A stretch of DNA of 62,115 nucleotides, from assembly GCA_012842395.1 (NCBI GenBank), contig DUSX01000018.1, positions 1-62,115 of the forward strand, in the 5' to 3' direction. Both the position numbers and the translations under genes were made by a program. Below the pieces are notes generated by a model. It ran no database searches and was not told the origin of the DNA. It worked only from the letters and a program-made list of their open reading frames with translations. Positions within the stretch are counted from its first letter, which is position 1; each line of letters begins with the position of its first letter. Origin of the DNA: Bacillota bacterium (GTDB taxonomy: Bacteria > Bacillota > SHA-98 > UBA4971). Shown here in pieces: positions 165-62,115 of this stretch.

Positions 165-252
165 TGGTGCCGAAGGGGGGAATCGAACCCCCATGGAGGG
201 TCACTCCGCGCGATTTTGAGTCGCGTGCGTCTGCCAGTTCCGCCACTTCGGC
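165..252 (-). tRNA. tRNA-Leu (anticodon CAA)
   Basis: The reverse strand folds as a class II tRNA. The acceptor stem is GCCGAAG/CTTCGGC, followed by the discriminator A and an encoded CCA (complement of 165-167). The anticodon stem is CGCGA/TCGCG with loop CTCAAAA, giving anticodon CAA. There is a long variable arm and a T-loop GGTTCGATTCC. The 3' end faces the integrase fragment, so this gene is the probable attachment site of the neighbouring element. Confidence 0.95.
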
Positions 253-60057: not shown

Positions 60058-60161
60058 GCGCGGGCCGGTGGGCGGACGCCGGGGTAGGCCGGGGTAGGGA
60101 GGAGTGCCGAGGATTTCGACGAATATTCATAAGACACCAACTATAGCGTGCCAAGGCGTTA
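60058..60161 (+). other. Upstream part of the hydrogenase leader region
   Basis: A TATAGC (60142-60147) might be a -10 box for the riboswitch transcript, but no good -35 is seen. With the aptamer and repeat fragment below, the whole gap to the hydrogenase is 400 bases. Confidence 0.3.
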
Positions 60162-60234
60162 CTCTCATATAGACCTGATAATCGTGGGTTCAGGCGTTTC
60201 TACCAGGAGGCCGCAACCAACCTGGCTATGAGAG
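60162..60234 (+). promoter_or_regulatory. Purine riboswitch aptamer (guanine type)
   Basis: P1 pairs CTCTCATA (60162-60169) with TATGAGAG (60227-60234), perfectly. J1/2 keeps the U (60170). P2 pairs CCTGA (60174-60178) with TCAGG (60190-60194). L2 contains TAAT...GTGG, and L3 reads CCGCAAC for loop-loop contact. J2/3 is GTTTCTACC (60196-60204), identical to the family consensus. The specificity base before TATG is C (60226), predicting guanine or hypoxanthine, not adenine. Variations: L2 is two bases longer, P3 (60204-60224) has two central mismatches, and G replaces A at the base before the specificity C. Confidence 0.87.
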
Positions 60235-60297
60235 GGCGTCCGGGGATCGTTCGCTCGATCTCGGGGCCCCCGAGCCGGCTGGGGCGGCCTCCTTGGC

Positions 60298-60385
60298 GAG
60301 TCGAGAATTCTGCCAGCCGCCAGCCTGCGCGCCGAATTCGGACGGGGCGCGCCGGGCACCGGCTGACCCCGGGTCCCCGGTGACA
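60298..60385 (+). repeat. Dispersed repeat, core fragment in the riboswitch leader
   Basis: GAGTCGAGAATTCTGCC, then GCGCGCCGAATTCGGACG and GGCGCGCCGG match the core of the family (compare 19178-19230). Arms are lost. It lies between the aptamer and the hydrogenase ribosome site. Confidence 0.6.
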
Positions 60386-60457
60386 GCGGCGAGCGGGCGC
60401 CGGAACGCGGACTGAAGGGACCCACCGCGAGAGAATGGGCGATCGGAGGTGAGGGGC

Positions 60458-62115
60458 GTGCTGGAGATCTTGGTGGATGGTCGGGCGTGCAGCGTGCCCG
60501 AAGGAACGAGCATCCTGGAGGCCGCGAGGCGCGCCGGAGTAGCGGTGCCGACGCTGTGCCACCACCCATGGACCGATCAGGGTGCGCGGTGTGGAGTGTG
60601 CGTGGTCGAGGTGGAGGGCAGGGACGATTTGGTGACCGCGTGCGACCATGCTGTGGAGCCGGGAATGGTCATTCGTACCGCGGCGGACAGGGTGGTGGCA
60701 AGACGCCGCGAGGTGGTGACGTTCCTCCTAGCGCAGCATCCTGCGGAGTGCCTAGTGTGTGAGCGCAGGAGATACTGCGAGCTCAAGACGCTCGGCGACG
60801 AGCTCGGCGTGCGCGTCCGCAGGCTTCGCATGAGGCGGCGGAAGCTTGCGGTGGACAGGACGGGCCGAGCGATAGTCCGCGATCCGAACAAGTGTGTCAT
60901 GTGCGGAAGGTGCGTTGCGGCGTGCATGAGGATGCACGGCATGACCCCCTATGAGTCGTTGGCCGCAGAGGTCGGGGAGGCCCGTGGCGTCATGGAGAGG
61001 ACCGGGCCGCGCGGGATCCTGAGCGAGGAGTGGGTGAGGTGTCGTTCGCTTGCATTCGAGGACGCGGCGGCGGCGACGCGGTGCGTGGAATGCGGGCAGT
61101 GCGTGGCAGCGTGCCCCACCGGAGCACTCTCGGAGAGGTCGGACCTGGTCAAGGTCAGGCGCCGGCTTGCGGACCGCAGGACCCTCATGGTAGCTCAGAC
61201 AGCGCCCGCGCTCCGGACCACCTTCGGAGAAGCATGGGGCAGGCCGCCGGGGACGGTCGCGACGGCGCTCATGGTGGCCGCGCTACGGAAGTTGGGGTTC
61301 GACAGGGTATTTGATACGGCGTTCGGGGCGGACCTCACGGCGGTTGAGGAAGCGCACGAGTTAAGGCAACGCCTTGAGTCGGGCGGCAAGCTACCCATGT
61401 TCACCTCGTGTTGTCCCGCATGGGTGAGGTTCGTGGAGACCGAGTATCCCGGACTTGTCGGACACCTTTCAACGTGCAAGTCGCCTCACATGATGGCCGG
61501 GGCAGTTGCGAAAGCGGTGATCCATGAGGCCGAGGGCGTGTCCCCGGAGGATGTGTTCGTCGTGTCCGTGATGCCGTGCACGGCGAAGAAATTCGAGGTC
61601 GCAAGGACGGAAGGGCACGGCCCGCAAGGGCTTGGACCGCTCGGGGCGTCGGACGACGGCCGGGGCCATGGAGGCGCGGCGGCCCGGGGCGCACTGCGCG
61701 ACGTCGACGCGGTGCTCACCACGCGCGAGCTCATCCGGCTGGTTCAGTCGGTTGAGATCGACGTGGACTCGCTGGAGGAGAGCGCGTTCGATGGGCCTCT
61801 TGGGAGCGCGAGCGGCGCCGGGACCATATTCGGCACTACGGGTGGGGTCATGGAGGCGGCGCTCCGGACGCTCGCAGACGAGCTCGCGGCGAGGCTCGAA
61901 AGGCTCGAAGCGGACGGAGACGGGAGCGTCGCGAGCGGACCTCCCGGTCCAGGGGTGGCTGAGGCGACGGTGGCCATCGGCCACCTCGAGTTGCGTGTCG
62001 CTGTGGTGCAGGGGCTTGCGGCAGCAAGGCAGATACTGGACGACGTACGGGCGGGAGGACGGCCGTACGACTTCGTGGAGGTGATGGCCTGCCCCGGCGG
62101 CTGCGTAGGTGGAGG
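60458..62115 (+). CDS. Large [FeFe]-hydrogenase (HydA-type), 3' end cut by window
   Basis: The 552 visible residues carry a ferredoxin-like [2Fe-2S] domain (TLCHHPW, RCGVC, TACDHA), a His-ligated cluster motif HPAECLVCERRRYC and two [4Fe-4S] motifs (CVMCGRCVAAC, CVECGQCVAACP). The H-cluster motifs are L1 FTSCCPAWV (Cys318), L2 VMPCTAKK (Cys374) and L3 EVMACPGGCVGG (Cys545, Cys549), where the window ends. This is a group A multi-cluster enzyme, as in NADH-linked bifurcating or soluble hydrogenases. A Gly-rich insertion lies after L2. GTG 60458 follows GGAGGTGAGGGG. A purine aptamer sits in its leader. Confidence 0.93.
   Translation, partial: MLEILVDGRACSVPEGTSILEAARRAGVAVPTLCHHPWTDQGARCGVCVVEVEGRDDLVTACDHAVEPGMVIRTAADRVVARRREVVTFLLAQHPAECLVCERRRYCELKTLGDELGVRVRRLRMRRRKLAVDRTGRAIVRDPNKCVMCGRCVAACMRMHGMTPYESLAAEVGEARGVMERTGPRGILSEEWVRCRSLAFEDAAAATRCVECGQCVAACPTGALSERSDLVKVRRRLADRRTLMVAQTAPALRTTFGEAWGRPPGTVATALMVAALRKLGFDRVFDTAFGADLTAVEEAHELRQRLESGGKLPMFTSCCPAWVRFVETEYPGLVGHLSTCKSPHMMAGAVAKAVIHEAEGVSPEDVFVVSVMPCTAKKFEVARTEGHGPQGLGPLGASDDGRGHGGAAARGALRDVDAVLTTRELIRLVQSVEIDVDSLEESAFDGPLGSASGAGTIFGTTGGVMEAALRTLADELAARLERLEADGDGSVASGPPGPGVAEATVAIGHLELRVAVVQGLAAARQILDDVRAGGRPYDFVEVMACPGGCVGG

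Follow-up and report, generated by a model that had tools for sequence, protein, structure and literature searches.

A guanine-class riboswitch before an [FeFe]-hydrogenase and amidohydrolase operon, a probable ON switch acting through a P3-sequestering hairpin

The guanine riboswitches described so far act mostly as OFF switches for purine synthesis and uptake. The original prediction placed a purine riboswitch in the leader of an [FeFe]-hydrogenase gene within the 62,115-nucleotide stretch of DNA analysed here (the window; its source genome is called G000), which raises the question of which genes the switch serves, what it senses and in which direction it acts. With cmscan and the whole Rfam library, the purine riboswitch model RF00167 was detected at 60145-60248 of the forward strand with 45.6 bits, above the gathering score of 37 bits (E=2.1e-4), and a search of the 3.14 Mb genome gave this match alone (E=2.4e-6). 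The gene that follows encodes a group A [FeFe]-hydrogenase, which confirms the predicted arrangement. The aptamer core runs exactly from P1 to P1 at 60162-60234, as had been proposed, in the cmscan alignment, in the alignment of relatives and in the pair counts. On the forward strand, it consists of a perfect 8-bp P1 (60162-60169 with 60227-60234), P2 (60174-60178/60190-60194), J2/3 (60196-60203, GUUUCUAC, then C54), P3 (60204-60210/60218-60224) and J3/1 (60225-60226, G73 and C74). The invariant J2/3 and the guanine-specific C (C74, position 60226) had both been recognised correctly.

The hydrogenase gene hydA starts with GTG at 60458 of the forward strand and continues through the last position of the window (62115) to contig position 62443, so that its end lies outside the window. 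Its product matches TIGR02512 (432 bits, cut-off 405.95 bits), contains PF02906 and PF02256 (the Fe_hyd_lg_C and SSU domains) and has HydA1 of electron-bifurcating hydrogenases and CpI as its nearest solved relatives. It is followed by genes for a HydN/AorA-like ferredoxin, a tungsten aldehyde ferredoxin oxidoreductase (AOR), an amidohydrolase, MoeB and a DMT-family transporter, separated in G000 by at most 14 nt or overlapping. The order hydA-hydN-AOR-amidohydrolase-moeB-DMT was identical in all six genus genomes (6/6), and the expectation that the same leader precedes orthologous hydrogenases was borne out in each of them. As at least seven further loci in the G000 genome match the [FeFe]-hydrogenase catalytic domain, the switch concerns no more than the part of hydrogen metabolism that this operon carries. 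In the sister genus, the aptamer directly precedes the amidohydrolase gene, which is followed by moeB, with no hydA-hydN-AOR in between; four genomes of this genus (G006, G007, G008 and G010) have neither the switch nor an amidohydrolase ortholog, and in G012 the contig of the ortholog ends 61 nt upstream of the gene. The unit under control is a compact operon, and the constant partner of the switch is the amidohydrolase gene, whereas the hydrogenase gene had been taken for the controlled one. The purine-catabolic cluster at whose end the switch had been placed does not belong to the conserved unit: its ssnA and PALP genes lie upstream of the switch in the window and were not found beside it in G001 and G002, and control tied to this cluster was discarded because the cluster is not conserved next to the switch. 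A tRNA gene match near the start of the window (168-252, reverse strand, RF00005, 55.6 bits) is unrelated to the switch.

The amidohydrolase scores above the cut-off of NF005557 (5'-deoxyadenosine deaminase; 664.6 versus 522 bits) and below that of guanine deaminase (TIGR02967; 251 versus 375 bits), and its gene neighbours point to a deaminase of purine bases or nucleosides. In G000 (contig 64728-66221), it carries a low-complexity insertion near the N-terminus at residues ~41-98, which the orthologs of the sister genus and others lack. With a threshold of E<=1e-130, 73 of 398 Bacillota genomes contained orthologs, and 34 orthologs outside the own family, in genomes with purine riboswitches, were considered further. 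A same-strand purine riboswitch was located 73-5364 nt upstream of 23 of these 34 orthologs, as against a chance expectation of ~0.1, a rough estimate that assumes some three switches in a 3 Mb genome; the 23 span eight families and include close relatives, ten coming from one family. The common order in the 11 of the 23 cases that were inspected is the switch, xanthine dehydrogenase-type subunits, often an AzgA-like permease (a reading of the sequence, with no NCBIfam match) and then the amidohydrolase, after which some of the eleven appear, again as read from the sequence, to have an adenine-deaminase-like gene. ABC-transporter genes precede the amidohydrolase in G100. In G018 (L084:4054-4153) and G166 (L094), a guanine-type switch with U73 and GUGUCUAC as J2/3 stands before an XDH-permease-amidohydrolase operon, and its terminator pairs with nearly the whole of P3 and L3.

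These gene orders bear on the possibility that purine control is meant for the amidohydrolase only and that hydA, hydN and AOR came to lie between the switch and its target as passengers. In the sister genus, and at a distance of 73-126 nt in G037, G137, G228 and G239, the switch is immediately followed by the amidohydrolase, as such an insertion would lead one to expect. However, G127, which belongs to a different family, also has the group hydA-hydN-AOR-amidohydrolase, with a break inside AOR where two contigs end, and its genome yielded no purine riboswitch; the grouping of the four genes is therefore independent of the switch. Passengers are accordingly an unlikely explanation, if one that retains some weight, and we favour control of the operon as a unit.

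The letters of the aptamer were compared with the criteria for guanine-I, guanine-II and xanthine-II given in PMC9295807. The pocket letters U22, U47, U49, C50, U51, A52 and C74 are all present. The adenine class, which needs U74, was rejected, as C74 is found in 8/8 relatives; xanthine-II needs U51G and insertions in J2/3 and J3/1, while here U51 is kept and insertions are absent; guanine-II needs a 1-nt insertion in J2/3 and changes in J3/1, while here both junctions have the standard length. By U22, U51, C74 and the absence of junction insertions, the aptamer is a canonical guanine-type (guanine-I) aptamer, and its predicted ligand is most likely guanine, possibly hypoxanthine. It deviates by a 9-nt L2, by two central P3 mismatches (in 8/8 relatives) and by G73 in place of A73. 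The prediction had noted matching L2 and L3 loops, had taken L2 as 7 nt long and had missed the mismatches and G73. Together with the closest NCBIfam name of the amidohydrolase, 5'-deoxyadenosine deaminase, the unusual G73 and 9-nt L2 could hint that another purine is sensed (xanthine, uric acid, 2'-deoxyguanosine or a deoxynucleoside), which would suit the deaminase and the purine cluster, and three re-tuned classes are known (PMC9295807). As G73 is common elsewhere (seen by eye in ~8/30 other Bacillota aptamers), it does not mark a new ligand class, and A73G was dismissed as a sign of a new ligand; with the specificity letters and junctions unchanged, a different ligand appears improbable.

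Exactly one RF00167 match spanning 104 nt was present in each of the six genus genomes examined (G000-G005), with the ligand-pocket letters kept in all of them, and in two of the seven sister-genus genomes examined (G009 and G011). When a DNA pattern for this aptamer sub-type was run over genome contigs of 84,980 species, matches were found only in members of this bacterial family. In the alignment of eight relatives, the P1-to-P1 core is nearly invariant and the flanks are divergent, and the P1/P2/P3 cells are paired in 81.8% compared with 24.7-52.6% when slid, a value that comes from eight near-identical sequences. Covariation, which the prediction had expected in relatives, is limited to P1, which stays paired with two of its pairs changed on both sides; it is weak (54/500 shuffles equal it) and is not strong evidence, because the sequences of the eight relatives are too similar.

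Upstream of the leader, a SigH-type promoter-like element, GGAGGAGTG-N11-GACGAATAT, was identified at 60098-60126 of the forward strand as a relaxed match to the consensus RNAGGAWWW-N11-RNNGAATWW (PMC8510167). Since the same element at the same spacing was seen by eye in G001, G002, G003, G005 and G009, the leader is probably transcribed from its own promoter. The relaxed pattern RNAGGA-N14-RNNGAATWW gave 39 matches in the G000 genome versus 1 for the reversed control, which suggests a wide use of SigH-type promoters in this genome. A first SigH-like pattern with a fixed AGGATTNTCG had given 0 matches in the genome, because AGGAGTG is found there; the consensus form did match. No sigma-70 promoter was found on the forward strand before the leader.

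The original prediction saw no T-rich terminator and suggested that control could act on translation or through a less usual platform. A scan for terminator-like sites in the window's own sequence indeed detected none, but an arm complementary to the 5' strand of P3 had been overlooked, and in most relatives a U run follows it. This arm lies some 35-60 nt after the aptamer. In the window, the anti-P3 arm GCGGCCTCCTTGG (60284-60296), the 3' arm of a putative terminator, can pair with CCAGGAGGCCGC (60203-60214), which comprises C53 and the 5' strand of P3 into L3; between them a P4 hairpin (60235-60269) can form in both states, in free as well as in aptamer-forced folds (all on the forward strand). 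The energy of the P3/anti-P3 duplex was reached by 0/1000 shuffles for G000 and G005 and by 12-34/1000 for G001-G004, while the arm duplex alone was no better than shuffles in G009 and G011 (368/1000 and 240/1000). When the RNA was cut just after the anti-P3 arm, the alternative hairpin was the minimum-energy fold in all eight genomes (8/8), 4.5-16.8 kcal/mol below the aptamer fold with the energies of the ligand and of the loop-loop contact left out. A U-rich stretch follows the hairpin in G001-G004, G009 and G011 and is absent in G000 and G005.

The same pairing was met outside the family. Eleven amidohydrolase-linked switches from elsewhere were folded, and most place the P3 arm in a hairpin that is followed by a U run, for example GCAACCGTAATTG...CAATTACGGTTGC-ATTTTT in G018. 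The arm also matches the downstream region of its own lineage better than those of others, 0/20000 permutations among 12 representatives being as good, so that the alternative pairing is conserved and co-varies between lineages; G037, G239 and G100 are exceptions in this single-arm test. Because of the alternative pairing, the U runs in most relatives and the matching of arms within lineages, the leader is most likely an ON switch working like pbuE, a platform other than those first proposed. For G000, the final step of termination is inferred, as the U run is missing in G000 and G005, and for the same reason we describe the leader as working like pbuE and not as a proven intrinsic-terminator switch. 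The 5' strand of P3 holds a perfect ribosome-binding-site-like AGGAGG (60205-60210) in all genus members, which is probably a by-product of the P3/anti-P3 pairing.

The missing U run could also mean that in the G000 species an intact aptamer heads a switch that is decayed or works only in part, its operon being largely constitutive. This is improbable: in G000 and G005, the two genomes concerned, the pocket and both hairpin arms are kept and the duplexes are the strongest of the genus against shuffles, and a GC-rich hairpin could still act via Rho or pausing. Least probable is a translational OFF switch, in which the ligand would free the CCUCC of the anti-P3 arm for pairing with GGAGG, the hydA ribosome-binding site, as this site precedes hydA throughout the genus, the anti-arm resembles an anti-Shine-Dalgarno sequence owing to the AGGAGG in P3 and G000 has no U run, but the computed accessibility of the site changes without a consistent direction (up in G000 and G009, down in G004 and G005), so that its occlusion was dropped as a mode of control, the spacing between aptamer and gene differs by hundreds of bases and most relatives have U runs behind the hairpin.

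Taken together, we propose with a probability of roughly 0.7 that a SigH-transcribed leader with a guanine-class aptamer exerts pbuE-type ON control over the operon by means of a P3-sequestering hairpin and thereby induces a deaminase together with a redox module. With purine bound, P1, the junction and P3 would be locked, and hydA-hydN-AOR-amidohydrolase-moeB-transporter would be transcribed. Without ligand, 60284-60296 would invade the aptamer and pair with 60203-60214, and the resulting long hairpin over P4 would stop transcription; the conserved mismatches in P3 may ease this strand exchange. An excess of purine would thus induce the putative purine or nucleoside deaminase along with AOR, ferredoxin and hydrogenase. 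AOR might then oxidise an aldehyde or another substrate and reduce ferredoxin, from which the hydrogenase would release H2 as a means of electron disposal; the reverse direction, an H2-driven reduction, is possible for this module. That purine supply gates hydrogen production, as originally suggested, is plausible on this model.

The family of the aptamer and the type of platform are already known; their combination and their target were not found in the open-licence literature searched. In these papers, no purine or guanine riboswitch was found with a hydrogenase, guanine deaminase or xanthine dehydrogenase, apart from the variants of PMC9295807, and none was found that deals with a hydrogenase target or with the amidohydrolase regulon. 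With chances somewhat short of even, guanine-class ON riboswitches that are widespread in the Bacillota may induce operons for the degradation of purines (with xanthine dehydrogenase, permease, amidohydrolase and adenine deaminase) and may in this lineage have captured an [FeFe]-hydrogenase/AOR module, in which case an excess of purine would directly increase hydrogen production. If this is true, the guanine aptamer is used in the opposite sense across several Bacillota families, for the induction of purine breakdown, and purine supply is tied to hydrogen metabolism in one lineage; a deaminase of unsettled substrate would moreover be connected with purine bases, and its assignment could then be tested.

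Among known systems, the aptamer is closest to the guanine-I riboswitch (RF00167) of xpt and guaA leaders, with which it shares the three-way junction, GUUUCUAC in J2/3, U22, U51, C74 and the letters of L2 and L3. The four guanine riboswitches of C. difficile are all OFF switches before biosynthesis, salvage and transport genes (PMC11477304), whereas the one described here is predicted to be an ON switch before a deaminase/hydrogenase operon. Xanthine-II and guanine-II of Paenibacillus are guanine-class relatives that are predicted to be ON switches, and xanthine-II adjoins purine-degradation genes including xanthine dehydrogenase (PMC9295807); unlike these, the G000 aptamer has neither U51G nor insertions in J2/3 or J3/1. 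In the adenine riboswitch of B. subtilis pbuE, an ON switch, the terminator that forms without ligand displaces P1 and P3, P4 is a toehold hairpin and strand exchange was reported to be easier with a mismatch near L3 (PMC7707468). The leader of G000 differs from pbuE in having C74 instead of U74, in its target genes and in the missing U run, but resembles it in the downstream arm that pairs with P3 in place of the aptamer, in the P4 hairpin and in the mismatches of P3.
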